Made by a program: the position numbers and the translations under genes. The notes below the pieces were generated by a model. It searched no databases and was not told where the DNA came from. It saw nothing but the letters and a program-made list of their open reading frames with translations. This document shows, one piece after another, positions 1-23,060 of a stretch of 64,000 nucleotides of DNA (its first letter is position 1; each line of letters begins with the position of its first letter). This DNA comes from a virus. The stretch lies in the IMG/VR virus record IMGVR_UViG_3300009502_000028, positions 19,929-83,928 of that record. One strand, written 5' to 3'.

Positions 1-304
1 TTGGATTGGAAATTGAAATTGGCTGACCTTCCCAATTAATTATTTTATAATAAGCCTCTTGTTCTTCGGGGGTTGCTTTGCTACCATCGACCACCATGTT
101 GTTGGTTTTGTCATATAGCTTTAGTCCAGATAATTTATATGTCGCAGTCTGAATTTCTCTAGCAGCCTCTTGGTGGTCAGAGATGAGAGTATCGAGTTCT
201 TGATGTTGATCTGGATTCAACAATATCCGCAAAATACCCGCCCGTGTTACGGAGTCTTTTTCTACTTTTGCCTTTTTGGTTTTTTTGATTTTTTCTTTTG
301 TCAT
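1..304 (-). CDS. Hypothetical protein, N-terminal part (runs off window)
   Basis: Open frame reading leftward from an ATG at 304 through the window edge, about 101 codons without a stop. The N-terminus is very Lys-rich (MTKEKIKKTKKAKVEKD), followed by a predicted helical stretch and then a more mixed region. It is divergent from the cas3 gene, so the 305-420 interval must hold promoters for both. I do not recognise the family. Codon use looks like the neighbouring genes. It could be a nucleic-acid-binding or structural phage protein, but nothing visible decides this. Confidence 0.6.
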   Translation of the reverse strand, partial: MTKEKIKKTKKAKVEKDSVTRAGILRILLNPDQHQELDTLISDHQEAAREIQTATYKLSGLKLYDKTNNMVVDGSKATPEEQEAYYKIINWEGQPISISNP

Positions 305-420: not shown

Positions 421-2697
421 ATGCTGACAGAAAATTTTGCCCATTCCGGTTATCAGGTGAACGCATCGAACCGTACAGTTGCTCCGCAATTATATCGGGA
501 TCACATTCATGCGGTACGTAATAACGCCTTGCGGGAGTTTGATCGTAGATTTCGTCATTATAAGAATAGAAAAATGGTAAATTTCTATCGGAAAATACTT
601 GAAACTGCTACAGAATGGCATGATTTGGGAAAATTGATGCCGGAATGTCAAGCAATTCTTTCACAATCAAGCGAAAGCGATACGTCAATGCTTAACCATG
701 TTGATGCAGGAGTATCGCATTGTATTAAGGAATATGAACGAACCAATGAATTATATTATCTTTTAGCAGCGTGGCTGATATTGGCTCATCATATTGGTTA
801 TATAGATTGGGAAGAATTAACTAAAATTACTCTTGTTAATCCGTCACAAATGTTATCGCCGACCAAAATACATCTTAAAGAAAAATGGCGGGATTATCGT
901 ATAAGAGATTATGTAGATGCTAATCTTATTATATGGGAACAACTACATAAAGAAGATATAATTATTACGGATTCAATGCCGGATGTTGGGTATAACATTA
1001 ATATTAAAAATGTTGATTGGCATGATATATCAGAGTGTTTTTCCTGCATGGTGTCTGCTGATCACGCCGACACCAATCAATTTCGTAATGATGGATATGT
1101 GCTACCTGAGCCATATAAACTTCGAGAGGATGAGCGTATTGAAAATTTTGATAAATATAATGATGGATTAAGTAAAATAAATCCCGGTAAAAGAATTAAA
1201 GATCGGAAGCTTCTTTATGCGTCGGCGGATAGGGAATCTATCTCATCTTGGATAAAAAACGATGGTACGGTAGGTTCGGGTAAAACCAATGCTAATCATA
1301 AAAAGGCATTGAAAATGGCAAAAAAATATGGGTGTGAACGAATATTTATTGTGGCCCCATATATTAATGTTATCAATCAACTTGTTGGTAAAGCAAAAGA
1401 ATCTCTTTTGTTACCGGGAGAGTATCAGGTAGGGGTTATTAACGAGCATCATTCTATGGTTCAGTTTACAGATTGGCGGTTGCGAAAATATAATAATAGA
1501 TTAGATGGTCCATTAACGTATACTACTTGCGTGCAATTTTTCGAGGCATTGACTACTTATCATCCCGCAGCGATAGGGAAACTCATTCATTTTACGGATT
1601 CGGTCATTGTTCTTGATGAGTATCATCAAGCGATGCCATATGAATTATGGTCACATGCGTTATTTTTATTAGAAAAATTAGTAAACAATTATAATGTTCA
1701 CGTTATTTTTAGTTCCGGGACTCCCATTGATTTTTGGGATTTATATCATAAAAATATAGTAGTGGATAATATGCTTACACATACGGAATGGAAGCATTTT
1801 CAGGCGAGAGAAAATACACGGGTTAAAAAATCGCATCTGGGAGCTATTGGATTAGGTAAATTATGTCGGCATATAACTAATGGATATAAAAACAAACATT
1901 CTACTTTAATAGTATGTAATACCACTAATAATGCGAAGGTTTTATTTAAATTATTGAATAGCGGAAATGGGAATGTCTATCATTTGAGTAGTCGAGTGAC
2001 ACCGGAGTTTAGAGAAAAAAGATTGGAATTAATAAAACAAAAAATAAAAGATGAATTACCGGTCATATTAATTGCCACCTCAATGGTAGAATGTGGTATT
2101 GATATATCATTTGAGCGGTGTTATCGAGAAGAAACCAGTTTAGATTCACTTCAACAATGCACCGGAAGATGTAATAGGAATAATGAATTTAAAATCGGAA
2201 AAGTATATGTTTTTTGTTTTTCTGAATCATTAATCCGAAAGGGAACAATAACTATTAATCCTACGACACAAAGAGCGATTAATGTATTTCGTAAATTAGA
2301 AAAAAATGAATGGATTCCGGCAATGGGAACATCGGCAGCGAGAGACACGTTAACAACTAGCAATTGGAATATGATTTCTCGGATTGAAGATAACTTTTCC
2401 AAGGGAAATCTCCGCACCGTAGGTAATTTAATGCGATTGATAAAAACTCAAAAATTTACAGTTGTAATCGATCCGACTGTCATTGAAAGAATTAAATCTA
2501 AAGATATTACCCTCGGATATGCGGATATTAGCAGAAATTCGGTAACGGTATTTGGAAATGTACACCAACGATTACTTAATGCCGGAATTATTGAACCGCT
2601 AGAGAAAATTCGGGACGATGCCGATGACCCAATTACAATGTGGGCATTGAATAACTATCATATTAATTATGATATTGAGCTGGGACTTTTATGTTAA
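421..2697 (+). CDS. cas3: Cas3-like HD nuclease / DExH helicase
   Basis: A 758-residue protein with the domain order of type I CRISPR Cas3. An N-terminal HD phosphohydrolase region shows His30, WHDLGK at 66-71, His93/His100 and AHHIGY near 122-127. A superfamily 2 helicase follows: GSGKT near 286-290, DEYH near 398-401, SSGTP, the motif V stretch TSMVECGIDISF, and the motif VI stretch QCTGRCNRNN near 578-587. Known Cas3 proteins degrade DNA after recruitment by a Cascade complex. The length is typical and no key motif is missing. It sits directly upstream of a CRISPR array on the same strand. No Cascade, cas1 or cas2 gene is visible in the window, so the partner complex is either elsewhere in the phage or supplied by the host. 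Not a generic phage helicase, given the HD fusion and the array. Confidence 0.88.
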   Translation: MLTENFAHSGYQVNASNRTVAPQLYRDHIHAVRNNALREFDRRFRHYKNRKMVNFYRKILETATEWHDLGKLMPECQAILSQSSESDTSMLNHVDAGVSHCIKEYERTNELYYLLAAWLILAHHIGYIDWEELTKITLVNPSQMLSPTKIHLKEKWRDYRIRDYVDANLIIWEQLHKEDIIITDSMPDVGYNINIKNVDWHDISECFSCMVSADHADTNQFRNDGYVLPEPYKLREDERIENFDKYNDGLSKINPGKRIKDRKLLYASADRESISSWIKNDGTVGSGKTNANHKKALKMAKKYGCERIFIVAPYINVINQLVGKAKESLLLPGEYQVGVINEHHSMVQFTDWRLRKYNNRLDGPLTYTTCVQFFEALTTYHPAAIGKLIHFTDSVIVLDEYHQAMPYELWSHALFLLEKLVNNYNVHVIFSSGTPIDFWDLYHKNIVVDNMLTHTEWKHFQARENTRVKKSHLGAIGLGKLCRHITNGYKNKHSTLIVCNTTNNAKVLFKLLNSGNGNVYHLSSRVTPEFREKRLELIKQKIKDELPVILIATSMVECGIDISFERCYREETSLDSLQQCTGRCNRNNEFKIGKVYVFCFSESLIRKGTITINPTTQRAINVFRKLEKNEWIPAMGTSAARDTLTTSNWNMISRIEDNFSKGNLRTVGNLMRLIKTQKFTVVIDPTVIERIKSKDITLGYADISRNSVTVFGNVHQRLLNAGIIEPLEKIRDDADDPITMWALNNYHINYDIELGLLC

Positions 2698-2763
2698 TTT
2701 GCGAGCGGTTAGGTGGCGTCAAATATGCCGTAGCCGCTCGCAACTTGTAACTCGCTGATAATA

Positions 2764-2876
2764 TGGAACTTACGAAATATGATATTTGATGTTGACAAAC
2801 CGGGGATAATAGAATACACTGCCGCTCGCAAATTGATACACAGTTCTTTGATAATACGTTACTTACGAGGGATACA
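2764..2876 (+). promoter_or_regulatory. CRISPR leader with promoter
   Basis: A-T rich leader between cas3 and repeat 1. TTGACA at 2792-2797, a 17-bp spacer and TACACT at 2815-2820 form a clear sigma-70 promoter facing the array, giving a leader of about 50 nt before repeat 1. The motif GCCGCTCGCAA occurs at about 2733 and again at about 2820, followed each time by a related stretch, so the leader looks partly duplicated. At 2701-2742 an 8-bp inverted repeat (GCGAGCGG/CCGCTCGC) can form a hairpin after the cas3 stop. A copy of 2764-2876 with about 14 mismatches lies at 19147-19259 on the minus strand. Confidence 0.75.
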
Positions 2877-3856
2877 GGTGAAGTGCTGGAACAGACCAGT
2901 TACTATATCACCGTTCGAGTTGGCGAAATATAGTGATAACTTGCATTTGGTGAAGTGCTGGAACAGACCAGTTACTATATCACCACCGCTCGCATTAGCC
3001 TTCTGGGAATGGAGTAAAGAAGGTGAAGTGCTGGAACAGACCAGTTACTATATCACCCACGATTGATTTGCCCGAACCAACTGGAAAATATGGGTGAAGT
3101 GCTGGAACAGACCAGTTACTATATCACCTATCATAGTAATGGATATTCCAAGTGCTGAACTCTACGGTGAAGTGCTGGAACAGACCAGTTACTATATCAC
3201 CAGAGCCAAGTCTCTGCTCATAGAGCAATAAAAAAAGAGGTGAAGTGCTGGAACAGACCAGTTACTATATCACCAGAGCCAAGTCTCTGCTCATAGAGCA
3301 ATAAAAAAAGAGGTGAAGTGCTGGAACAGACCAGTTACTATATCACCCGCAGCATATTGGCTTTCATCAAAAGCAAACTCTAGGTGAAGTGCTGGAACAG
3401 ACCAGTTACTATATCACCATGAGTAATACATATCCTTCCTATGGTATCCTTTCAAGGTGAAGTGCTGGAACAGACCAGTTACTATATCACCATCAGTAGA
3501 GAATCCGGTTTATCATCTTCTATCTGGGTGAAGTGCTGGAACAGACCAGTTACTATATCACCTATCCGAATTGTTGCACCAGAGGCAATGCATATTCAGG
3601 TGAAGTGCTGGAACAGACCAGTTACTATATCACCACCGCTATATAGGAAAAGCCCCTAACTCAGTCGCCTAGGTGAAGTGCTGGAACAGACCAGTTACTA
3701 TATCACCGCCGTTATATGTATATGCTATAAAGAAACATCGGTAATGGTGAAGTGCTGGAACAGACCAGTTACTATATCACCACCTCGTGGTAGCGGTCCT
3801 TGCCGAGCAGGTGCTTCGCCGGTGAAGTGCTGGAACAGACCAGTCACTATATCACC
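2877..3856 (+). CRISPR. CRISPR array, 14 repeats of 36 bp, 13 spacers
   Basis: Repeats start at 2877, 2949, 3022, 3093, 3166, 3239, 3312, 3383, 3456, 3527, 3599, 3672, 3746 and 3821. Each is 36 bp, begins GGTGAAGTGCTGGAACAGAC and ends ATATCACC. The ends are inverted (GGTGA/TCACC) and an internal CTGG/CCAG hairpin has loop AACAGA. Spacers are 35-39 bp. Spacers 5 and 6 are identical, a duplicated repeat-spacer unit. The last repeat carries a T-to-C change, marking the leader-distal end and agreeing with the leader on the left. Spacer 13 (3782-3820) is much more GC-rich than the window. No spacer was recognised by eye as matching the rest of the window. Short open frames across the array are artefacts. 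Confidence 0.97.
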
Positions 3857-10732: not shown

Positions 10733-11107
10733 ATGAATTCTATTCACTTTGAAATTAAAGGACGTAAAGCTATTGAGAAGATGGGAATGGTCTATACAGA
10801 TACCGATATTAACTGTCGTGAGCACGTATTAAGCTGCGTGCCAATTAAAATAGACGTAAGAGATCAACCTAATTATAGCCTAAATAAAATCGAGAAAGAT
10901 TTAGATATTGTATTTAGAAAACTATTGAAATCGGAATTACTCTTCAGTAAAATTAAAAAACTTCATAGTGTGGTTTGGGATCGAATCTACATTATTGGCG
11001 ATGAATGGAATGTAAGAAAATTCGAAGCAAGATACTGGATAAGAATATTAGGAGAAGATGCACCGGGGACAGCTACTCCTGTCTGTTTAGAATGCTCTGG
11101 GGGATAA
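10733..11107 (+). CDS. Hypothetical protein, 124 aa
   Basis: Starts MNSIHFEIKGRKAIEKMGMV five bases after thyX, so probably cotranscribed with it. The C-terminus carries CLECSGG, and its last 21 bases overlap the convergent gene at 11087. Mixed alpha/beta, no recognised family. Confidence 0.65.
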   Translation: MNSIHFEIKGRKAIEKMGMVYTDTDINCREHVLSCVPIKIDVRDQPNYSLNKIEKDLDIVFRKLLKSELLFSKIKKLHSVVWDRIYIIGDEWNVRKFEARYWIRILGEDAPGTATPVCLECSGG

Positions 11108-11965
11108 CTCCGCTTTGTTTTCCTGAGCATAATCCTCAAGCGCCATAATTTGTTTGGGGCTCGGTGGTCTCGTTCTCGGAAAATCATATTCAACTACTTC
11201 TCTACCGAAAGAAGTCACATGTGATGTCCGATACCATCCAAGCTCTGCCATTTTACCCAATATATCCCCATCATCTGGCATTTTATTTATTTTAGTTAAA
11301 TATGCGGTCGCCCATGGATCATGCTGATACATTCCTACTTTAATAAATTCCCCGCTCGGATTTAGCCAAAACAGTCTCGGATATATATTTTCATTCAATA
11401 ATCCCCGGTTAACCGGTGGCGCACCGTCTTGGAATTCCTTATATGGTTGTAATTGAGTATCTCCATAACCACAAGGTTGATATAGAACTTCGGCGGGATT
11501 ATATTTAAAATCTTTTAGAAATTGAAAGATAATAGGCATTATGCTTCTTAAGGTTGGTGTAGCATCCCAGAAACTAAACACGCACTGATTATATATTTTA
11601 AATAACCTCGCACTAGTATATTCTTCCCAATTGATCGGACTTGCTTTAAGAGCATTCATTATAACTTTTCTCATCTCCATATGAGCACAAGCTCTGCCGC
11701 CAGATATTTGATTACTTGCTCCTTTAGCTATGGCATCTGCCAATAATGCATTTATTTTAGGGTCTGAACAAAGAACGGTTTTTTTCGATGGGAAATAAAC
11801 CATATAACTATTTATACTGTCGAGGGTTCCGAATAGAACAACCGCCTCTACGCCATCATTTACATCATAAGAGACAAATCCATTTTTGGTTTCCAGACTA
11901 TCTGGATCTTCAAAAATTTGTTTTACGATTTCTTTAATTAATTTTCGAAATTGACTTTTACGCAT
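11087..11965 (-). CDS. Hypothetical protein with capsid-targeting-like N-terminus, 292 aa
   Basis: The ATG at 11965 gives MRKSQFRKLIKEIVKQIFED, a basic amphipathic N-terminus of a type seen on several proteins here (compare 61287 and the internal segment of 62558). I-F-E could be a prohead-protease site. The rest is a mixed globular protein with no recognised domain. AT-rich sequence resembling a promoter lies just upstream. An in-frame ATG at 12013 would extend into the upstream gene and is less likely. Confidence 0.6.
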   Translation of the reverse strand: MRKSQFRKLIKEIVKQIFEDPDSLETKNGFVSYDVNDGVEAVVLFGTLDSINSYMVYFPSKKTVLCSDPKINALLADAIAKGASNQISGGRACAHMEMRKVIMNALKASPINWEEYTSARLFKIYNQCVFSFWDATPTLRSIMPIIFQFLKDFKYNPAEVLYQPCGYGDTQLQPYKEFQDGAPPVNRGLLNENIYPRLFWLNPSGEFIKVGMYQHDPWATAYLTKINKMPDDGDILGKMAELGWYRTSHVTSFGREVVEYDFPRTRPPSPKQIMALEDYAQENKAELSPRAF

Positions 11966-16014: not shown

Positions 16015-16043
16015 CTTTTTAGTGTTTTATATTTAACTCCCTA

Positions 16044-16072
16044 AGAGTATCAGAGTTATTATAATAAGTCAA
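16044..16072 (-). promoter_or_regulatory. Cassette-type promoter
   Basis: TTGACT (16072-16067), 17 bp containing TATAATAA, TACTCT (16049-16044). It shares a conserved block (TTATAATAA-TCTGATA) with the promoters at 16649, 17303, 17559, 17887 and 18265. Confidence 0.55.
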
Positions 16073-16079
16073 GCCCAAC

Positions 16080-16238
16080 CTAAACTTTCGTTCGAGCCGG
16101 GTATGCCACATTCCACCGCTCGTTCGCTTTTTTCACTTCCCGCTCGAATCGAATCCGGCGTGTCGGTGTGCTATAAGCATACGCCAACCGCCGAAGTAGG
16201 CGTTGGTTCTGTGCCTTTGATGACATGTCTTTTTTCAT
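16080..16238 (-). CDS. Small basic protein, 52 aa
   Basis: Starts MKKDMSSKAQNQRLLRRLAY and continues with many Arg residues. It begins four bases after the stop of the 55-aa gene. A possible nucleic-acid-binding peptide; no family recognised. Confidence 0.5.
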   Translation of the reverse strand: MKKDMSSKAQNQRLLRRLAYAYSTPTRRIRFEREVKKANERWNVAYPARTKV

Positions 16239-16242
16239 GGCC

Positions 16243-16410
16243 TCAATTTTTATTTTTATAGTTTTTTACCATTTTCAAATCCTCAACTACCTTCTTGAGG
16301 ATGTATGCTTGCTGTGTGTCCTCCGGCGTCATTGGCTCCGCTATTAGGACGTTTAGCAACTCGGTGTAGTTTTTGATCAAATCGTTAATCATCAAATCTT
16401 TAATCTTCAT
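16243..16410 (-). CDS. Small helical protein, 55 aa
   Basis: Starts MKIKDLMINDLIKNYTELLN, entirely helical with a basic C-terminus. Its ATG overlaps the end of the upstream gene, so it is probably translationally coupled. Function unknown. Confidence 0.5.
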   Translation of the reverse strand: MKIKDLMINDLIKNYTELLNVLIAEPMTPEDTQQAYILKKVVEDLKMVKNYKNKN

Positions 16411-16639
16411 TGTTTGTCATTTCGGTTGATCGAACGGTAACGGGTGCGACTTTTATTTCGAAGATACCTAATCCCAGGGGGCGGATAGCCAAATAACGAA
16501 CCACGCCGCCCATGATGATTGTTTGATTCTGGTGTAGCCACTTTTTAGCAAGCGTCGTATGCACCCGCATCGGCTCACGGAGAAGACAATTTAGGATTAA
16601 GTTTTCGTTCGTTATTTCGTTTTCGTTTTCGTTTTTCAT
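16400..16639 (-). CDS. Hypothetical protein, 79 aa
   Basis: Starts MKNENENEITNENLILNCLL. The coding repeat GAAAAC in the first codons resembles the MKNE starts of nearby cassette genes. First gene after the promoter at 16649; the 55- and 52-aa genes follow it. A beta-rich segment VVRYLAIRPLGLGIFEIKV is visible; no family. Confidence 0.6.
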   Translation of the reverse strand: MKNENENEITNENLILNCLLREPMRVHTTLAKKWLHQNQTIIMGGVVRYLAIRPLGLGIFEIKVAPVTVRSTEMTNNED

Positions 16640-16648
16640 CTTGGGTAA

Positions 16649-16677
16649 AGAGTATCAGAGTTATTCTAAAATGTCAA
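16649..16677 (-). promoter_or_regulatory. Cassette-type promoter
   Basis: TTGACA (16677-16672), 17 bp, TACTCT (16654-16649), then a short TTTACCC leader before the ATG at 16639. Confidence 0.6.
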
Positions 16678-16711
16678 CTTCGATCTGAATTTATTTATTG
16701 TTTACCAATCA

Positions 16712-17017
16712 CTAATCCGTATTCAAACTAATCTGCCCGGGATCACAACTCCAACAGTCACCGGCTTGATCTTCAACGATGATATACTTACCTCTAAACT
16801 CCACAACTCGCCCGGTAAAGTCATCATTGAAATCAGAATCATGTCGCCAGCGAACATCTACTTTGTCTCCACAATCGAAAGTTTCAAATGTTTCGTTATT
16901 CATCTTGGATATAGTTTGATCATTTTTTCCAATAACGCAATAACCATATTCGCCACCTTGGGCAATTTCCCACCAAGTGCCAATTTGGATTTCTTCGTAT
17001 GATAAAAATGTTTTCAT
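16712..17017 (-). CDS. Hypothetical beta-rich protein, 101 aa
   Basis: Starts MKTFLSYEEIQIGTWWEIAQ. Acidic and rich in Trp, Tyr and Gly, with CDPGQISLN near the end; the pattern suggests a small beta barrel. Upstream is a cassette-like TTGACT (17051-17046) with a weaker -10. No family recognised. Confidence 0.6.
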   Translation of the reverse strand: MKTFLSYEEIQIGTWWEIAQGGEYGYCVIGKNDQTISKMNNETFETFDCGDKVDVRWRHDSDFNDDFTGRVVEFRGKYIIVEDQAGDCWSCDPGQISLNTD

Positions 17018-17065
17018 ATAAATAATAATCCACGGTTCTATAATAAGTCAACCATTGTCTGCTAT

Positions 17066-17293
17066 CTATGGAACGTTGTTCCAATGCTCTCGGTTTTCAA
17101 CATCCAGGTGATAACTACTATCGGTGTCGATCCTCCATTGGACATCCTCCGACCACGCCTTATCCGGCGTTTGTGGCTTGTTACTTATTGAACATCCATG
17201 GCCCCATTCTGCATCCGCCCCGGCGTCGTGCCCGTAACGGAACCCCGCCGCAAATGCAGCCTTAAGCAATAATACAAGTTCTTCGTTTTTCAT
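17066..17293 (-). CDS. Hypothetical protein, 75 aa
   Basis: Starts MKNEELVLLLKAAFAAGFRY, an amphipathic helix with Gly/Ala followed by an acidic Trp-rich tail. A helical FAAGFxxGxDA start of this kind is common in small phage proteins of unknown role. Own promoter at 17303-17331. Confidence 0.6.
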   Translation of the reverse strand: MKNEELVLLLKAAFAAGFRYGHDAGADAEWGHGCSISNKPQTPDKAWSEDVQWRIDTDSSYHLDVENREHWNNVP

Positions 17294-17302
17294 CTCGGGT
17301 AA

Positions 17303-17331
17303 AGACTATCAGAGTTATTCTAAAATGTCAA
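17303..17331 (-). promoter_or_regulatory. Cassette-type promoter
   Basis: TTGACA (17331-17326), 17 bp, TAGTCT (17308-17303), leader TTTACCC, ATG at 17293. Confidence 0.6.
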
Positions 17332-17348
17332 CTTCGATCTGAATTATT

Positions 17349-17549
17349 TTAGTAAGTGTAAAGCCAGTTTATAAACCTCTGGTCAATTCGATCATAACTA
17401 TATCGCTTGTTGAATTTCATGGAAGCCAAGGCCAACGGCCTGCCGGGAGGATAACCTGCTCCATATCGCCGGCCCCAACGCATCAACAACCGCTTCTGCC
17501 AATCCGTTAATCCGTCAAATTCTGATCTGTTTATATAGTCTGTGCTCAT
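17349..17549 (-). CDS. Hypothetical basic protein, 66 aa
   Basis: Starts MSTDYINRSEFDGLTDWQKR, Arg/Tyr-rich. Own promoter at 17559-17587, and it terminates just before the promoter of the next cassette. No family recognised. Confidence 0.6.
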   Translation of the reverse strand: MSTDYINRSEFDGLTDWQKRLLMRWGRRYGAGYPPGRPLALASMKFNKRYSYDRIDQRFINWLYTY

Positions 17550-17558
17550 CTTGGGTAA

Positions 17559-17587
17559 AGACTATCAGAATTATTATACAATGTCAA
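17559..17587 (-). promoter_or_regulatory. Cassette-type promoter
   Basis: TTGACA (17587-17582), 17 bp, TAGTCT (17564-17559), TTTACCC leader, ATG at 17549. Confidence 0.6.
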
Positions 17588-17877
17588 CTTCGATCTGAAT
17601 ATATTCTATTGGCTTCCATTTGAATCACCCGCCGCATATCTATGTCAGGGATTCCAGTGTAATAAAAATCATCTGTTTTTTTATCTACCGGCTGCAAAGC
17701 CTCAAGACACTCATCATTAACCTCGACATTCGTTCCCAGCGTTTCCTCGACCAGCGGTTCTACCCAGATAAATGATGCCATAGCTTCTTCCACCGATATT
17801 TCCCTATGCCAGCACTGCATTAGGAGTTTTTGCATCTCGTCTTTAGTCATCACGTCATTGCTTTGTGTGTTTTTCAT
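17584..17877 (-). CDS. Hypothetical acidic protein, 97 aa
   Basis: Starts MKNTQSNDVMTKDEMQKLLM. Acidic and helical, with a MQCWHREISVEEAM segment. A truncated paralogue (MTKDELQEILMQCWHRETSV) lies at 18431-18544 next to a solitary CRISPR repeat. Own promoter at 17887-17915. Function unknown. Confidence 0.6.
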   Translation of the reverse strand: MKNTQSNDVMTKDEMQKLLMQCWHREISVEEAMASFIWVEPLVEETLGTNVEVNDECLEALQPVDKKTDDFYYTGIPDIDMRRVIQMEANRIYSDRS

Positions 17878-17886
17878 CTTGGGTAA

Positions 17887-17915
17887 AGACTATCAGAATT
17901 ATTATAATAAGTCAA
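17887..17915 (-). promoter_or_regulatory. Cassette-type promoter
   Basis: TTGACT (17915-17910), 17 bp, TAGTCT (17892-17887), TTTACCC leader, ATG at 17877. Confidence 0.6.
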
Positions 17916-17922
17916 GCCCGAT

Positions 17923-18255
17923 TCACAGACCGAACCGATGAAACCGTCGATAACGGCGAGTCTTATCAACTCCGTTGTCAGGCACGTCCCACGACGAAAT
18001 CGGCTTCCCATAGTGGCAGGGAACATCCGTTCCGCATCGGTCAATAGTTCGACTCCAACGATCTCCACAGCAGGAACAATCTGTTCCCTCGGTGCAACCG
18101 TCGAAATAGATACCATGTGATTCAGCAATTTTATTCGCCTCATTGGCGGAATGAGCTTGGACATATACTGTCTCGGCAACCTCGTTGTCAATTAGGAGCG
18201 TGCCCCCGCTGTTATTCTGGTAATATGGAAACCACTTCAATTGTTCGTTTTTCAT
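17923..18255 (-). CDS. Hypothetical Cys-rich protein, 110 aa
   Basis: Starts MKNEQLKWFPYYQNNSGGTL. The centre has CTEGTDCSCCGDRW, a Cys cluster likely to bind metal, and an AHSANEANKIAESHGIYF segment like small substrate-binding beta-alpha units. Own promoter at 18265-18293. No family recognised. Confidence 0.6.
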   Translation of the reverse strand: MKNEQLKWFPYYQNNSGGTLLIDNEVAETVYVQAHSANEANKIAESHGIYFDGCTEGTDCSCCGDRWSRTIDRCGTDVPCHYGKPISSWDVPDNGVDKTRRYRRFHRFGL

Positions 18256-18264
18256 TGTGGGTAA

Positions 18265-18293
18265 AGACTATCAGAATTATATTAATTTGTCAA
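18265..18293 (-). promoter_or_regulatory. Cassette-type promoter
   Basis: TTGACA (18293-18288), 17 bp, TAGTCT (18270-18265). The -35 element overlaps the last codons of the 24-aa frame at 18290-18364. Confidence 0.6.
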
Positions 18294-18364
18294 TCGTTTT
18301 CCGGTTGAACTATGAGAGCATCATATTCAGCCGCTAGGTCAACCGGGTTCCAGCAATCATTCAT
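18290..18364 (-). CDS. 24-aa frame directly behind solitary CRISPR repeat A
   Basis: Reads MNDCWNPVDLAAEYDALIVQ plus PEND. Its ATG lies nine bases after the 3' end of the CRISPR-like repeat at 18374-18409, in the same orientation. It may be a real micro-gene, a remnant of a longer gene, or chance. It ends at the -35 element of the next promoter. Confidence 0.3.
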   Translation of the reverse strand: MNDCWNPVDLAAEYDALIVQPEND

Positions 18365-18373
18365 ACCATACAA

Positions 18374-18409
18374 GGTGATATAGTAGCTGGTCTGTTCCAG
18401 CACTTCACC
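18374..18409 (-). repeat. Solitary CRISPR repeat A
   Basis: Matches the array repeat at 35 of 36 positions on the minus strand. No second repeat lies within spacer distance. The terminal GGTGA/TCACC and inner CTGG/CCAG pairings are kept. It sits between a truncated paralogue (18431-18544) and a 24-aa frame. Confidence 0.9.
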
Positions 18410-18430
18410 ACGCAATTCGTCTGCATTCAG

Positions 18431-18544
18431 TCACAGCGTTTCCTCGACCATCGTTTCTCCACAGATGGCGTCCAATGCGTCATCCACCGATGTTTCCCTA
18501 TGCCAGCACTGCATTAGGATTTCTTGCAACTCATCTTTAGTCAT
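18431..18544 (-). pseudogene. Truncated paralogue of the 17584-17877 gene, 37 aa
   Basis: MTKDELQEILMQCWHRETSV then DDALDAICGETMVEETL and a TGA. It aligns with the start of the 97-aa protein but stops early, and the CRISPR-like repeat follows about 20 bases later. Recombination at or near the repeat is a plausible cause of the truncation. Confidence 0.5.
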
Positions 18545-19092
18545 GGTTCGTAATCTATAGTTTTGGGAATATCTTGCACGAAACTTATCAAGACAACATC
18601 GGATTCCATCTCATCAATCCGATATTTCTTGTAGGATTCTATTAGGTAGGGTTTCCCGCCACAGGAGGTTTCAAACCCTTCCAGGTGGTTATCATACATT
18701 TTAGTAACCCGAACCCGACGAATCTTGTCGTGATACATAAAGCTGACCACCGGAAAGTTTAGATTCGATTTTGTATCCGGTGCCGGTGAAGAGACAGTTG
18801 GAATAATTTCAGGAGGGTCTTTGAGGGATTCCATGAAATGGGGCAGACTAGACGTCCAACGTGTGTGTGTGCAATCATATTTACAATGAACCGCCGAGAT
18901 TTTCTTTGTGTTAGGATCAAACATCATCCTCTCCTCAGAAAAAATTATCTTAGTCAGAGCATCATAACTGTCATTGTCCTCCCAATCGTATCCGAAACTA
19001 AATGCAATCCTCTGAATGACTTCGCTGTCAATCGAAGGATTGAATGACCATACTATTTTCCTGTAGTTTTTCATATTTTTCATATTTTTCAT
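18541..19092 (-). CDS. Hypothetical protein with CRISPR leader-repeat as 5' UTR, 183 aa
   Basis: The start is ambiguous because three in-frame ATGs sit in a 9-bp tandem repeat (AAAAATATG). The protein has YRKIVWSFNPSIDSEVIQRI, then AFSFGYDWEDND, and is a paralogue of 19790-20209. Upstream, in the same orientation, lie a CRISPR repeat (19111-19146) and a copy of the CRISPR leader with its promoter, so the mRNA would carry the repeat in its leader about 20-30 nt before the start. Family unknown. Regulation through repeat processing is a testable inference. Confidence 0.65.
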   Translation of the reverse strand: MKNMKNMKNYRKIVWSFNPSIDSEVIQRIAFSFGYDWEDNDSYDALTKIIFSEERMMFDPNTKKISAVHCKYDCTHTRWTSSLPHFMESLKDPPEIIPTVSSPAPDTKSNLNFPVVSFMYHDKIRRVRVTKMYDNHLEGFETSCGGKPYLIESYKKYRIDEMESDVVLISFVQDIPKTIDYEP

Positions 19093-19110
19093 ATTTTTAT
19101 TCTGGGTGGT

Positions 19111-19146
19111 GGTGATATAGTATCTGATCTGTTCCAGCACTTCACC
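19111..19146 (-). repeat. Solitary CRISPR repeat B
   Basis: 34 of 36 positions match the array repeat, minus strand. It is preceded by the duplicated CRISPR leader at the same distance as in the real array, but followed by a coding gene instead of spacers. Confidence 0.9.
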
Positions 19147-19259
19147 TGTATCCATTGTAACTATCGTATTATCAAAAAACCGTGTATCAATTTGCGAGCG
19201 GTAATGTATTCTATTATCCCTGATTTGTCAACATCAAACGCCATATTTCGCAAGTTCCA
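19147..19259 (-). promoter_or_regulatory. Duplicated CRISPR leader and promoter
   Basis: About 113 bp aligned without gaps to 2764-2876, with about 14 mismatches by eye. The promoter is preserved: TTGACA (19231-19226), 17 bp, TACATT (19208-19203). The GCCGCTCGCAA motif survives as ACCGCTCGCAA. It drives transcription leftward through repeat B into the 183-aa gene. Confidence 0.85.
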
Positions 19260-19314
19260 CATTGTCAAATGTTAGCTTGGTCCCCAAGTGTTTTCGTAGT
19301 TGTAATTTGGTCAT
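19234..19314 (-). pseudogene. Truncated paralogue of the 20497-20703 gene, 26 aa
   Basis: MTKLQLRKHLGTKLTFDNVE matches the first 17 residues of the 68-aa protein (MTKSQLQKHLGTKLTFELET), then runs into the duplicated CRISPR leader. The breakpoint lies near the leader's upstream edge, dating the leader copy as an insertion or recombination into this gene family. Confidence 0.55.
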
Positions 19315-19333
19315 ATCTATTATATCTTTTAAT

Positions 19334-19675
19334 TTAATCATTTTGATCCATCCAAATTTGAATTATTTTATCATCTTTATTTATAAAATTATATGCTCTT
19401 TGCCAACCTTTTCCATATATATTTTTGGATTTTTTTGCTTCTTCTGGTGAAACTACTTCACTTCCATATGATTCAAAACCCAAAATATTTAAAATTTTTG
19501 TTATAGATAAAATGTCATTATGTTCGACTCTAAGATCTAAATCATGATTTGATTTTCCATATTTAGCAACAGAACCAACTATTTTTGCCCCAAGTTTATC
19601 GGCTATTGGTTTAGCCATTTCCAATGTCCAATATCTATCAAAAAATTCTAATATTATATCTTTAAGTTTAATCAT
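19334..19675 (-). CDS. Minimal nucleotidyltransferase with capsid-targeting-like N-terminus
   Basis: 113 residues. The ATG at 19675 gives MIKLKDIILEFFDRY, the shared N-terminal peptide with an L-E end. The core GAKIVGSVAKYGKSNHDLDL matches the pol-beta nucleotidyltransferase signature (GSxA...DxD) near residues 36-55. Such domains transfer nucleotides to RNA, proteins or small molecules; MNT/HEPN antitoxins are one example, but no HEPN partner is adjacent. The peptide suggests possible packaging into the head. Confidence 0.65.
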   Translation of the reverse strand: MIKLKDIILEFFDRYWTLEMAKPIADKLGAKIVGSVAKYGKSNHDLDLRVEHNDILSITKILNILGFESYGSEVVSPEEAKKSKNIYGKGWQRAYNFINKDDKIIQIWMDQND

Positions 19676-19700
19676 ATAGATATAAATATCCAACTATATA

Positions 19701-19730
19701 CAAAAAGAAGCCCCATCTTTCGTTCGATGG
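19701..19730 (-). terminator. Putative terminator for leftward transcription
   Basis: Stem CCATC/GATGG with loop GAACGAAA followed by a T-rich CTTCTTTTTG tract on the minus strand, downstream of the 19790-20209 gene. Confidence 0.45.
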
Positions 19731-19751
19731 AGTCTTTATTCTATTTTAATA

Positions 19752-19837
19752 ACAATCCCGCCGTCTGCCATACTAATTTCTTTGGAACACTAACACAATC
19801 CCGCCGTCTGCCGTACTAATTTCTTTGGAACACTAAC
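19752..19837. repeat. Tandem 43-bp duplication
   Basis: 19752-19794 and 19795-19837 differ at one position. The second copy lies in the 3' end of the 19790-20209 gene, whose stop falls at the junction, so the duplication sets its C-terminus. Confidence 0.8.
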
Positions 19838-20209
19838 TTGAATCGACTTATCGCTATCCACAAAAACCACATTATCCGATTCAATGTGAACCGATAGTTT
19901 ACCGTCAGTAGATTCGATTACTATTGGATTCAACGGAGGATTATTTAACATTTTAATCAAAAATTCACCTGTCCATACTACCAAATATTCCGAGGATTTA
20001 TAATCCTTAACCAGATTCATTAATTTTCTGTTGGGATCAAATCCAACTCGAAAATTCTTATCAGTTATAACCATTGGAATCATTCTCGAATATATGGTAG
20101 ACGTTTCCCAATTATAACCGAAAGTAAAAGCAATCCTCTGTGGAAGTTCCAGACAAGTTACATCATCAGTAGGTTCAAAACCCCATATTATTTTTTTATA
20201 TTTTGTCAT
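19790..20209 (-). CDS. Hypothetical protein, 139 aa, paralogue of 18541-19092
   Basis: MTKYKKIIWGFEPTDDVTCL, then QRIAFTFGYNWETS and VGFDPNRKLM. These align with the 183-aa protein (YRKIVWSF, QRIAFSFGYDWED, MFDPNTKKI). The C-terminus ends at a tandem duplication. The family is unknown but has at least two members here, one controlled by the CRISPR-type leader. Confidence 0.65.
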   Translation of the reverse strand: MTKYKKIIWGFEPTDDVTCLELPQRIAFTFGYNWETSTIYSRMIPMVITDKNFRVGFDPNRKLMNLVKDYKSSEYLVVWTGEFLIKMLNNPPLNPIVIESTDGKLSVHIESDNVVFVDSDKSIQVSVPKKLVRQTAGLC

Positions 20210-20233
20210 ATTTTGTTTAACTGTATTTTGATG

Positions 20234-20407
20234 TTAATCTCCAATTTCCATTTTTACTGTGATTGTTTCTTTCCCACTAGTTCCAGAATATAGAAATTCT
20301 CCCGATGCATCGATAATAGAACCATTGAAAAAGTCAATTTCTTCTTTGAGATCATCAGCACCAATCTCGTATTCTCTAATAACTGTATATATGTGCCTAA
20401 TTTTCAT
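20234..20407 (-). CDS. Hypothetical protein, 57 aa
   Basis: MKIRHIYTVIREYEIGADDL then KEEIDFFNGSIIDASGEFLY. Small alpha/beta protein. It is preceded by a solitary IS right-end hairpin that abuts the start region. No family recognised. Confidence 0.5.
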   Translation of the reverse strand: MKIRHIYTVIREYEIGADDLKEEIDFFNGSIIDASGEFLYSGTSGKETITVKMEIGD

Positions 20408-20410
20408 ATT

Positions 20411-20440
20411 GATGAACTACCCACCCGCTAAAGCAGATGG
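20411..20440 (-). repeat. Solitary right end of the TnpB-1 element family
   Basis: Hairpin ACCCatCTGCtttaGCgGGTGGGT followed by AGTTCAT, closely matching 5416-5445 of the TnpB-1 element. No tnpB or left end is adjacent. It is either a remnant or a non-autonomous end. Confidence 0.65.
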
Positions 20441-20496
20441 GTTTTCTGCTCCCGCCAAGATAAAATGTTTAGGGCAGGGGTTTGCTGGCTCCCGAG

Positions 20497-20703
20497 TTAA
20501 TCAAGTGTTTTCTCAAAAGAAGGATTTAAAATTGCGTTAACAACTCGTTTATGCATAGCGTGAGCGTCAATCGAAGTCCAAATAAGGGATTTGATTAATT
20601 CCAAACGTTGGTTATCATCTAGGTCCGTAAATAACATCCTGAATGTTTCTAATTCAAATGTTAGCTTGGTCCCCAAGTGTTTTTGTAGTTGTGATTTAGT
20701 CAT
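20497..20703 (-). CDS. Hypothetical protein, 68 aa
   Basis: MTKSQLQKHLGTKLTFELET, helical with an acidic middle. A truncated copy of its N-terminus occurs at 19234-19314. Function unknown. Confidence 0.6.
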   Translation of the reverse strand: MTKSQLQKHLGTKLTFELETFRMLFTDLDDNQRLELIKSLIWTSIDAHAMHKRVVNAILNPSFEKTLD

Positions 20704-20705
20704 TA

Positions 20706-20909
20706 TTATTGATCATATTCATCATCATCTAATTCCTCACAATAATCCATATTGAGTCCCATAAGTCTGGCCTGTGCATCCAATTCAATCGTCATCAACT
20801 CAATTGGATTGCGACTCTTCAAGGCGTGTTCCCGTAGAGCATCCATATTGGCAATTCTGTTTGCAATGATTTCTGCTTGATCTAATGGTGGTAGGTCATT
20901 TAATTTCAT
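20706..20909 (-). CDS. Hypothetical protein, 67 aa
   Basis: ATG at 20909 gives MKLNDLPPLDQAEIIANRIA. Helical, with a very acidic C-terminus (EELDDDEYDQ). It ends two bases before the next start. No family recognised. Confidence 0.6.
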   Translation of the reverse strand: MKLNDLPPLDQAEIIANRIANMDALREHALKSRNPIELMTIELDAQARLMGLNMDYCEELDDDEYDQ

Positions 20910-20979
20910 AATTTTAAAAAATGGTGACACCCAGGCGATTTCCACGCCCCTGTCGCTTTCGCTGTCACAGTCTCAGATT

Positions 20980-21318
20980 TTACTTTCGGCTAGCTTTCTG
21001 AGCGGGTGTCATTTTTGAACTAGTCTTCCATTTTCCTTCTGCCCGCAAAAAGGCTTCCGATTTCAGACGAGCACTTGCATTGACGACCCTCAATTTTGTA
21101 TCGCAAGGGCCATAGCACAGGCGTTCAAGCTCGCTACAGGCCAGAACCTGTTTTGCGATGGATAATTGCGACCATGCAGAATGAATCGCATTTAAGTCGC
21201 CGGTGTAGTTTGGCTGATATTGATAATAACTACCAGATTTAATTTCTTCTCCGGTAGGTTCATGATATTCTTCTCCACACACAGTTGCAATTGCAACGTT
21301 TATTTCTTGATCAGTCAT
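20980..21318 (-). CDS. Phage ABA-sandwich-like protein, 112 aa
   Basis: MTDQEINVAIATVCGEEYHE, then PNYTGDLNAIHSAWSQLS. The NYTGDLNAIHSAW block resembles the YSxDIxAAW motif of the small phage ABA-sandwich family, whose role is unknown. Its ATG lies ten bases after solitary repeat C, and a promoter lies just before that repeat, so the repeat would be the mRNA leader. Confidence 0.6.
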   Translation of the reverse strand: MTDQEINVAIATVCGEEYHEPTGEEIKSGSYYQYQPNYTGDLNAIHSAWSQLSIAKQVLACSELERLCYGPCDTKLRVVNASARLKSEAFLRAEGKWKTSSKMTPAQKASRK

Positions 21319-21328
21319 GTGATATGTT

Positions 21329-21364
21329 GGTGATGTAGTGGCTGGTCTGTTCCGGCATTTTACT
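21329..21364 (-). repeat. Solitary CRISPR repeat C (degenerate)
   Basis: 29 of 36 positions match the array repeat, minus strand. The core GGAACAGACCAG and the end ACATCACC are kept; the outer 5' end has drifted. It lies between a sigma-70 promoter and a start codon. Confidence 0.75.
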
Positions 21365-21366
21365 TC

Positions 21367-21666
21367 CTATATGCTATCAGATTGCATAGTCTTTGTCAAC
21401 CTATTCCTTTGAAACCGATCATAATTCTCTTGCATCGCCATCCAAAAATCGGATGAGATATGGAGGGTGTTTTCCAACTTCTCGGCAATTGTCAAGGTGA
21501 TCGGAGCTTGCCAATTAACTATGTTAGTAATTTTCAGCGGGGGAACATCCACCAGTTTGGAAAACTCAGATATGGTAAGCCCATATTGGTTTATAGTTTC
21601 GAGAAGGGTTTCACCGGGATGCGAGCAATAATTTGGTTTGTAAGGATGAAGTGTTTTTGATTTCAT
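21367..21666 (-). CDS. HigA-like XRE-family antitoxin/regulator
   Basis: 99 residues. HPGETLLETINQYGLTISEF, a helix-turn-helix around residues 26-55, and FWMAMQENYDRF near the end match the HigA/VapI antitoxin family. No HigB toxin gene is adjacent, so it may be a solitary regulator or counter a host toxin. Its promoter (21676-21704) gives a nearly leaderless mRNA. It lies immediately upstream of the repeat-C gene, whose promoter is inside its 3' end. Confidence 0.8.
   Translation of the reverse strand: MKSKTLHPYKPNYCSHPGETLLETINQYGLTISEFSKLVDVPPLKITNIVNWQAPITLTIAEKLENTLHISSDFWMAMQENYDRFQRNRLTKTMQSDSI
21371..21399 (-). promoter_or_regulatory. Promoter reading into repeat C
   Basis: TTGACA (21399-21394), 17 bp, TAGCAT (21376-21371). 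Transcription would start at about the first base of repeat C. It overlaps the 3' end of the HigA-like gene. Confidence 0.6.
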
Positions 21667-21675
21667 GCTGGATAT

Positions 21676-21704
21676 ATTCTATCCGAAGATTTATAAAAAG
21701 TCAA
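21676..21704 (-). promoter_or_regulatory. Promoter of the HigA-like gene
   Basis: TTGACT (21704-21699), 17 bp, TAGAAT (21681-21676), ATG at 21666. Confidence 0.6.
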
Positions 21705-21734
21705 CTATATTTCCAAATTTTTTTGTTCACTTTC

Positions 21735-23060
21735 TTGGAGGAAGGAAGCCTCTATCCCTTTAGGGTAGAGGAGGAATTCCGACCATTCTTAATATCCTAC
21801 ACCAACCACCTCAGTTTGTCAACCATAAAATAAATCACATATTTTAACTTTTTTTGATGTTTTCGTTTATCGTGTGATATATATTGTTGTAACAAATGAT
21901 TACTTATAATACAAAACTAATCGGTGATACAAGCGAACTTAAAAAGTTGCTTGAACATCAAAAACTTGTATTTAATTTTGCTTCTAAAGAACAGTTTTCC
22001 GAATCTAAAATTGTTCCAAAAATATTACACTCCAAAGTATATCATAATATTAGAAAACAATACCCCGAAATAACATCACAAGTAATCATTCGTTCTCTAA
22101 ATGAATGTATTTCGTCGTATCGTTCCGTTAAATCAAATAAACATAAAATAAAATCTCCGATTGAAAAAAAGAAATTATCAATGCGGTTGGATAAAAGACT
22201 TTATTCAATACCAAATAAATCTTCAATTCGTATAACAACCGCAAATAAAAGACAAACATTTGAATTCACGGTTTATCCACGACTTAAAGAATTACTTAAT
22301 AAATATTCCTATCAAGACCCTCTGATTTATGAGGACATGGGAAACATCTATATTTGTTTGTCATTTGAAAATAAACAACCTCAATTGAAACCCAGATTGG
22401 CAATTGGAGTCGATCTAGGTATTCGTAGGTCTGCCGCAACAAGCGAAGGAAAATTAATTATAGATAAAAAATTCAATGAACGTAAACGAAGATTAAGACA
22501 CCAAAAAGACATCCTCAAATCTAAGGGGACAAAATCTGCCCGCAGAAAATTAAGATATTCTTTAAGACGAAAAGAACATAATCAAAACAAAAACCAGACC
22601 CATCTAATTGCTAATTCCGTTCTCAATACCGAAGCAGACATAATTTGCTTAGAAAATCTCAAATCCATAAAAGTAAAGAAAAATAAATACCAAAACAAAA
22701 GAAGTATATCACAAGTTCCATTATTTGAACTTCGTAGAGTAATAACCTATAAGGCACAGAATCAAGGTAAAACTGTTCTGCTCGTTTGCCCTTACAACAC
22801 ATCTAAAACCGATTCCGTAACAGGCAAGGTTGAAGGTGAGAGAAGAGGTTGTAGATTTTACTCTAAAGTTAATGGAATGATATACGATGCGGATATAAAT
22901 GCAGCGATTAACATTGCTAAATTATCCAAACATCCCATATCACAAACTAACCGTTTGACTTATGGGCAGGCGACAGTCAATTCGCCGAATGAATATAAAT
23001 CACTGAGAAAGCTCGGTGTCTTTCAAGCCCCCATGGCTTTAGCCTAGGGGTTGTTGACTG
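21735..23060 (+). mobile_element. IS605-like element with TnpB-2
   Basis: Left end GGAGGAAGG plus hairpin CCTCTATCCC/GGGTAGAGG, then AGGAATTCCGACC, a block shared with the left ends at 24291 and 40501 and the inverted one near 55745. The right end is the hairpin CCCCCATGGCTTTAGCCTAGGGG followed by TTGTTGAC. No tnpA. Boundaries are approximate. Confidence 0.75.
21896..23047 (+). CDS. tnpB: TnpB-like nuclease (TnpB-2) with degenerate zinc finger
   Basis: 383 residues. RuvC motifs are present: IGVDLGIRRSAATSEG (Asp, near 172), CLENLKSIKV (Glu) and YDADINAAINIAKL (Asp). The region that normally carries CxxC...CxxC reads CPYNTSKTDSVTGKVEGERR, so most zinc ligands are gone while the TS(K/Q)xD pattern is kept. 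About the same length as TnpB-3 and TnpB-4 and clearly homologous to them. The C-terminal residues are encoded by the right end. Confidence 0.88.
   Translation: MITYNTKLIGDTSELKKLLEHQKLVFNFASKEQFSESKIVPKILHSKVYHNIRKQYPEITSQVIIRSLNECISSYRSVKSNKHKIKSPIEKKKLSMRLDKRLYSIPNKSSIRITTANKRQTFEFTVYPRLKELLNKYSYQDPLIYEDMGNIYICLSFENKQPQLKPRLAIGVDLGIRRSAATSEGKLIIDKKFNERKRRLRHQKDILKSKGTKSARRKLRYSLRRKEHNQNKNQTHLIANSVLNTEADIICLENLKSIKVKKNKYQNKRSISQVPLFELRRVITYKAQNQGKTVLLVCPYNTSKTDSVTGKVEGERRGCRFYSKVNGMIYDADINAAINIAKLSKHPISQTNRLTYGQATVNSPNEYKSLRKLGVFQAPMALA

Follow-up and report, generated by a model that had tools for sequence, protein, structure and literature searches.

Nineteen solitary copies of one CRISPR (clustered regularly interspaced short palindromic repeats) repeat, accompanied by four arrays of the same repeat, are dispersed over a viral genome whose gene content (GP88, DUF932 and PHROG matches) points to a bacteriophage. 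They were approached from a window of 64,000 nucleotides (nt), the whole stretch of DNA analysed, which corresponds to bases 19929-83928 of the 83,928-base virus record IMGVR_UViG_3300009502_000028 (G000); whole-genome counts and G001 coordinates refer to IMGVR_UViG_3300025162_000016 (G001, 368,758 bases). We tentatively favour, at somewhat less than an even chance, the reading that the solitary units derive from the arrays and that, where transcribed, they resemble the RNA anti-CRISPRs (Racrs) of phages. Known solitary repeats of phages are RNA anti-CRISPRs acting against a host system, whereas here nineteen lie beside the phage's own Cas12-like effector and four arrays, and traces of their origin are still visible in leader-repeat copies and a fixed 3' boundary. 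The family is a test case for the conversion of array fragments into free-standing RNA genes, and for the question of whether a phage is able to dampen or dose its own Cas12.

Solitary copies of the array repeat

With mismatches counted against the 36-nt array repeat GGTGAAGTGCTGGAACAGACCAGTTACTATATCACC, G001 holds 19 solitary copies at no more than 10 mismatches, together with arrays of 7, 14, 7 and 12 repeats, one repeat being used throughout. Three solitary copies are in the window, 12 in the remainder of the 83.9-kb record and four elsewhere in G001. In 20 single-base shuffles of that record the best match per shuffle had 13-16 mismatches, and the reversed G001 sequence gave zero copies at the threshold of 10. 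The distant copies at G001 304154, 330454 and 350540 equal the array repeat without a mismatch, and 35 distinct substitutions are found among the solitary copies. All 19 are on the G001 plus strand, which is the window minus strand, and 12 are clear of every open reading frame (ORF) in a crude ORF call. The original prediction had noted three unpaired minus-strand copies at window positions 18374, 19111 and 21329, each shortly before the ATG of a gene and two of them behind a clear promoter. That observation is confirmed and was understated: the positions and mismatches (1, 2 and 7 of 36) are borne out, the closest other copies lie more than 700 bases off, an ATG follows at 9, 18 and 10 nt, promoter-like sites precede 21329 and 19111, and the count of three was far too low. 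The statement that genes follow the repeats fared less well. After 18374 the ATG begins a frame of no more than 24 codons, and at 19111 the 204-codon ORF 19155-18541 has its own ATG upstream of the repeat, which may thus be read as coding.

G000 and the corresponding part of G001 differ by one mismatch over 83,859 bases, and the perfect direct repeat of 7,102 bases at the G001 termini implies a unique length of about 361,656 bases. A pattern scan for the repeat core among viral contigs matched G001 and G002 (IMGVR_UViG_3300009502_000024, 96,641 bases), the latter with eight of the G001 copies at a constant offset, that is, this phage only; exact patterns of the core were not found in GTDB genomes. 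Queries with Cas12, Cas3 and DUF932 returned the same phage only among viral contigs, and against GenBank phages Cas12 had no match and Cas3 three remote ones (25-28%). Given this lack of relatives sharing the repeat or the cas genes, the repeats can be compared with relatives at one locus only, in the contigs L042 and L043.

The origin of the units is suggested by their upstream sides. When all pairs of 23 units (the 19 solitary copies and the four first array repeats) were compared, the 30 nt upstream proved common within four groups that involve solitary copies, namely 282075 with the array leaders (identity 0.80-0.90), 330454 with 350540 (0.97), 304154 with 304355 (0.97) and 309895 with 310032 (0.87). 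Over the 30 nt downstream no pair reached 0.65 (null 99.9% mark 0.63), and the remaining solitary copies have neither side in common at the 0.65 mark. The array leaders are alike over 232-260 nt, ending with repeat 1 (five pairs compared), and leader plus first repeat match the 19111 unit over 157 nt, repeat included, at 88-89% (89% with window 2756-2912). A shortened array-leader copy also precedes the repeat at G001 229885. In the window, small ORFs that adjoin the 18374 and 19111 units are shorter than their paralogues. Before 18374, the part that a small ORF has in common with its paralogue ends about 14 nt from the repeat; its frame is open through the repeat, with a stop 81 nt after it, so that a point mutation could by itself account for the early stop, and insertion of the repeat was discarded as its cause. 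Common upstream sides, leader copies and the shorter small ORFs fit a process in which an upstream module is copied along with a single repeat; we infer the mechanism of this copying and its direction, from array to solitary site.

In computed RNA folds the array repeat forms a hairpin with 13 pairs (-13 kcal/mol, z -2.9), and the 21329 copy does not fold (-3.5 kcal/mol, z -0.79). When the 19 solitary copies were aligned with the consensus and three array-end repeats, the outer G-C pair was seen replaced by A-U on both sides in six distinct rows; both-sided changes elsewhere are U-A to C-G in the array end at 333875 and G-C to A-U in the copy at 303930. Among the 48 altered pairs of the solitary copies, 19 are still able to pair (26% under the null, P 0.0002), and in a shuffle control the cells with a both-sided change (9/500) and the cells paired (27/500) were mildly remarkable. 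These figures are modest sequence evidence that the hairpin is kept in the family. Free drift without a conserved hairpin, which the original prediction had named as a ground against itself, is seen in part: the 21329 hairpin is lost and substitutions are not rarer at paired positions, yet altered pairs pair above the null.

The phage's CRISPR system and its counterparts

The Cas3-like and Cas12-like genes are divergent and adjoin one array, which lies about 2.6 kb from the Cas12-like gene with Cas3 between. The 758-amino-acid Cas3-like protein has a Pfam Cas3-like C-terminal domain (E 2.5e-15). Residues 745-905 of the 1003-amino-acid protein match Cas12j19 / Cas12X chains (E 3.3e-7) and TnpB-related models were matched below the cut-off; its first 740 residues gave no match, and an alignment-free fold reached a predicted local distance difference test (pLDDT) of 34.8, with no usable model. 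A predicted Cas12 effector with a RuvC domain near an array places the system in type V. Type I is not indicated: Cas3 is present, and no match was found in G001 to Cas7 PF05107, Cas5 PF09704 or the Cas6 models PF10040 and PF01881, other Cascade families not having been searched; Cas1 PF01867 had no match either. In the window array (2877-3856) spacers 5 and 6 are identical, and in the G001 array 333064-333910 spacers 2 and 9 are identical and spacers 1 and 8 differ by one base, such duplications inside arrays being a sign of recombination between repeats.

Dependence on a trans-activating CRISPR RNA (tracrRNA) is not indicated. Noncoding anti-repeat duplexes were -32.4 or weaker, no stronger than those of the reversed-repeat control (best -37.6, on one third of windows). 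An element upstream of 330454 and 350540 with nine bases complementary to the repeat was rejected as a candidate, its best window ranking about 1,285th of 89,128. With no anti-repeat beyond control and no Cas1, Cas5, Cas6 or Cas7 matches, we presume that the Cas12-like protein or host factors read the repeat.

We found no account of such a phage family of solitary repeats in the open-licence literature; CRISPR-derived RNA elements are reportedly the subject of Shmakov et al. 2023. The nearest counterparts are as follows. Racrs are repeat RNAs that tie up Cas proteins and act on host systems (Camara-Wilpert et al. 2023, PMC10651486). Like these and the solitary repeat units (SRUs) of the same work, the present copies are lone CRISPR repeats of a phage genome, and a promoter-like site precedes some of them; unlike those, they share a genome with a Cas12-like protein, Cas3 and four arrays, number 19 and in two cases carry an array leader, and instead of a host system they would act on the effector of the phage itself or of a relative. 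When two of the published SRUFinder criteria were applied, 10 of the 19 copies reached at least 90% repeat identity (18374 with 97% and 19111 with 94%; 21329 has 81%), 14 had no other repeat within 100 bp, including all three window copies, and 10 passed on both counts, among them 18374 and 19111. Racr candidates for testing were chosen with a promoter within 250 bp upstream (PMC10651486). In the 100 nt upstream scored here, a promoter-like site with a score of at least 9 precedes 6 of 19 copies (background 10%, P 0.009), and two of the six owe the site to a copied leader; in the window, two of the three copies have a promoter-like site upstream.

CreTA/CreR (Cheng et al. 2022, PMC9458426) is similar in having degenerate repeats outside arrays and a matching CRISPR system in the genome, and differs in that the flanks here have no match beyond control and the effector is Cas12-like, not Cascade; no toxin RNA was identified, none having been sought. 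Delocalized CRISPR RNAs (crRNAs) of CRISPR-associated transposons (PMC11656645) likewise have a single repeat away from an array, whereas guides here are without a known target. Phage CRISPR systems without adaptation genes (Al-Shayeb et al. 2020, PMC7162821) resemble this one in the huge phage, the Cas12-type effector, the short arrays and the lack of a Cas1 match. Here, by contrast, a Cas3-like gene is divergent to the Cas12-like gene with no Cas5/Cas7 match, and solitary copies are not mentioned in the corresponding part of that account.

What the solitary units may do

Under the Racr-like reading, an upstream module and one repeat would be copied elsewhere, the copy ending at the 3' edge of the repeat and thereby making a new unit; in two units (window 19111 and G001 229885) the module would be an array leader with its promoter. 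A transcribed unit would yield an RNA hairpin like that of a crRNA repeat, and this hairpin could bind the phage's Cas12, or the Cas12 of a relative with the same repeat, in competition with array crRNAs, as Racrs compete in host systems. Control of a gene from its leader would be plausible only where a leader-repeat copy precedes an ORF. Transcription of the solitary units, their binding of Cas12 and its titration are steps that we infer. The original prediction had offered both a decoy role and regulation through mRNA leaders; its decoy idea corresponds to the Racr or solitary-repeat-unit kind, and leader regulation did not hold as a general pattern.

Several observations weigh against the Racr-like reading. 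Nine of the 19 copies are below 90% identity or have a neighbour within 100 bp, 13 are without a strong promoter-like site within 100 nt, and called ORFs are overlapped by seven (by the crude ORF call). SRUs are described as lacking an association with cas genes (PMC10651486), and this genome encodes the Cas12-like protein and Cas3 and has four arrays made of the repeat in question. The location of all copies on one strand is only mild evidence, because 356 of 455 crudely called ORFs run likewise, and the copies at G001 311353 and 311735 face two minus-strand ORFs. As to the hairpin, the pairing test treats related copies as independent, 26 substitutions fall on 26 paired positions against 9 on 10 unpaired ones, and the shuffle control was otherwise unremarkable (covariation score 77/500, pairs with both-sided change 94/500, pair types 500/500). 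Finally, a phage has no evident reason to inhibit its own Cas12.

An account that we consider unlikely, and still take seriously, is that the solitary repeats are by-products only, leader-repeat modules and intergenic sequence of a repeat-rich phage genome having been duplicated and recombined, and that most of them do nothing. Spacers are duplicated inside the arrays, other short palindromes are also scattered (TCTAAGGTTAGA nine times on the plus and seven on the minus strand, ATTTCACCAAT 11 times on the plus strand), and the 15 TnpB genes mark a genome rich in mobile elements. The drift of the repeats, with substitutions equally dense inside and outside the pairs and the 21329 hairpin broken, and the relative without repeats at the single locus compared, would be expected as well. 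Mere by-products account less readily for altered pairs that still pair above the null, for the somewhat enriched upstream promoter-like sites and for the distant copies 304154, 330454 and 350540 that are identical to the array repeat.

It is improbable that the units are dispersed single-guide genes, each made of a promoter or scaffold, a repeat and a unique guide in the manner of delocalized crRNAs. Four groups do keep the upstream side and the repeat while the following sequence differs, the layout expected for Cas12 guides, and in two units the repeat is joined with an element resembling a guide-RNA scaffold; however, matches of the flanks within the phage do not exceed control level, and three flanks run into a gene start. 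In CreR RNAs, what follows the repeat is a match to a target promoter of the genome that encodes them. A guide of this type, which the original prediction had mentioned, finds no support here: the best non-self phage matches of the 19 flanks are within the range of 200 control noncoding stretches. The highest of them, 26 nt at 304024-304049 for 304154 and 23 nt at 313490-313512 for 314770, fit local duplication; the former involves flank positions 304195-304220, does not include the first five flank bases, and covers a promoter-like site. The 36 array spacers gave no convincing target in the phage genome (best 30.2 bits, the control stretches having served the flanks only), and the spacers of two of the four arrays had no significant match in GenBank phages (best E about 1).

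The scaffold-like element upstream of 330454 and 350540 is about 300 nt in its long copies and has a promoter-like start. Its copies end at G001 7103 (+), 237041 (-), 361524 (-), 330453 (+) and 350539 (+); the first three are without a CRISPR repeat, and the two others, which are shortened, have a perfect repeat as their flank, other flanks being variable. Its motif GGAGCTTA[GT]AGTC also occurs at the 3' ends of the TnpB genes 12860 and 354215, with a looser form at 182312. Since the motif is common with TnpB 3' ends, the element may more likely be a TnpB-guide-like RNA or a transposon end that adjoins the repeat than part of a natural single-guide RNA at 330454/350540, a candidate for which fold z-scores of -1.9 and -1.8 are not decisive. 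The two units have the same junction, so that one joining event followed by duplication is likely. That the repeat has turned into a dispersed family of guide-RNA genes, with two chimeras of a TnpB-scaffold-like element and a complete repeat, and with two leader-repeat copies that place genes under control by free Cas12, is a possibility to which we give little credence.

The positions of genes and promoter-like sites bear on control at mRNA leaders. An ORF of 50 or more codons has its ATG within 60 nt after the repeat at 3 of 19 copies, namely 279857 (window 21329), 282075 (window 19111) and 229885, where a 98-codon ORF begins 40 nt after the repeat; at a fourth, G001 330454, outside this count, the ATG of an 83-codon ORF overlaps the repeat. 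The site TTGACA-17-TACATT (window 19231-19203) ends 56 nt before the 19111 repeat, and an ORF similar by eye to the 204-codon ORF lies at window 19790-20209 without a repeat. Promoter-like sequences intervene between repeat and next gene at 18374 (G001 282812), G001 307172 and G001 310032, and in a consensus scan of window 17800-21800 such sites were not in excess (14 against 13.2 in shuffles). A transcription start at the repeat was discarded as a general rule, 4 of 19 copies being above the background 90% mark and 2 above the 99% mark (mean P 0.09).

Relatives in which the genes are kept and the repeats are gone, which the original prediction had said would speak against it, were approached closely at one locus. 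L042 and L043 (63% identity in GP88; 12.3 kb of the 16.6-kb contig and 10.4 kb of the 21.2-kb contig compared) keep the order of DUF932 and GP88, between which G001 has the repeats 307083 and 307172, and contain nothing repeat-like in the compared stretches (best 16 mismatches). The gene directly after the repeats is matched by eye only, to an ORF at L042 4126-4818 between DUF932 and GP88, and tblastx showed no likeness between the two. L042 and L043 may lack a CRISPR system altogether, so that the comparison demonstrates no more than that the flanking genes can do without the repeats. Control of the next gene by Cas processing or binding at the repeat is therefore very improbable as a pattern, given the 3 of 19 ATGs, the three intervening promoter-like sites, the relatives at that locus, the unfolded 21329 copy and the two Cas6 models without a match, although 19111 and G001 229885 have a promoter-like site, a repeat and an ATG at 18 and 40 nt, and 21329 such a site 6 nt before the repeat and an ATG 10 nt after it. 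At 19111 and G001 229885, where a copied array leader brings promoter and repeat before an ORF, leader control is possible.

Features of the window and neighbouring observations

Table 1. Position, strand and characteristics of the features discussed (window coordinates unless G001 is given)
Feature	Position	Strand	Remarks
Cas12-like gene, 1003 aa (amino acids), 5' end	1..304	-	whole gene G001 300917-303928 (+)
Cas3-like HD nuclease-helicase, 758 aa	421..2697	+	Pfam, PDB Cas3 chains, PADLOC Cas3c
Array leader	2681..2876	+	~196 nt alike among array leaders compared
CRISPR array	2877..3856	+	14 repeats of 36 nt, 13 spacers of 35-39 nt
Promoter-like sequence	18265..18293	-	between 18374 repeat and next ORF 17923-18255
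Solitary repeat, 35/36	18374..18409 = G001 282812-282847	- (window)	1 mismatch; small early-stop ORF before repeat
Small ORF (MTKDELQ...)	18431..18544	-	in-frame TGA 21 nt before 18374 repeat; longer paralogue 17850-17584
ORF, 204 codons	18541..19155	-	behind, partly over, leader-repeat copy
Solitary repeat, 34/36	19111..19146 = G001 282075-282110	- (window)	2 mismatches; array-leader copy before repeat
Copy of CRISPR array leader	19147..19267	-	includes TTGACA-17-TACATT
Small ORF start (MTKLQLRKHLGTKLTF)	19268..19314	-	runs into leader copy; longer paralogue 20703-20497
ORF, 112 codons	20980..21318	-	ATG 10 nt after 21329 repeat; no Pfam or PHROG match
Degenerate solitary repeat, 29/36	21329..21364 = G001 279857-279892	- (window)	7 mismatches; hairpin broken
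Promoter-like TTGACA-17-TAGCAT	21371..21399	-	ends 6 nt before 21329 repeat

Directly before the 21329 repeat lies an antitoxin-type helix-turn-helix gene (phrog_1381, window 21367-21666); no partner toxin was found for it in family scans, no dedicated search having been made. Similar promoter-like and 5' regions precede several small minus-strand genes in window 16043-18313. The 1.6-kb gap after the Cas12-like gene contains a 49-base tandem repeat of 4.9 copies (G001 304757-304997), behind which TCTAAGGTTAGA palindromes are found.

Among mobile elements, G001 has 15 TnpB-type matches over the cut-off, one of which adjoins a serine-resolvase ORF (11080-11649), and one Y1 transposase match at 321910-322194. 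A TnpB insertion next to the repeat at G001 12987 was considered, with the repeat as its guide, and set aside; the sequence that it has in common with another TnpB element stops some 67 nt short of the repeat, which makes it an unlikely guide of that element. Finally, five transfer RNA matches and a transfer-messenger RNA match were found in the phage stretches L034 6137-8181 and L036 4894-5287 (60 kb scanned).

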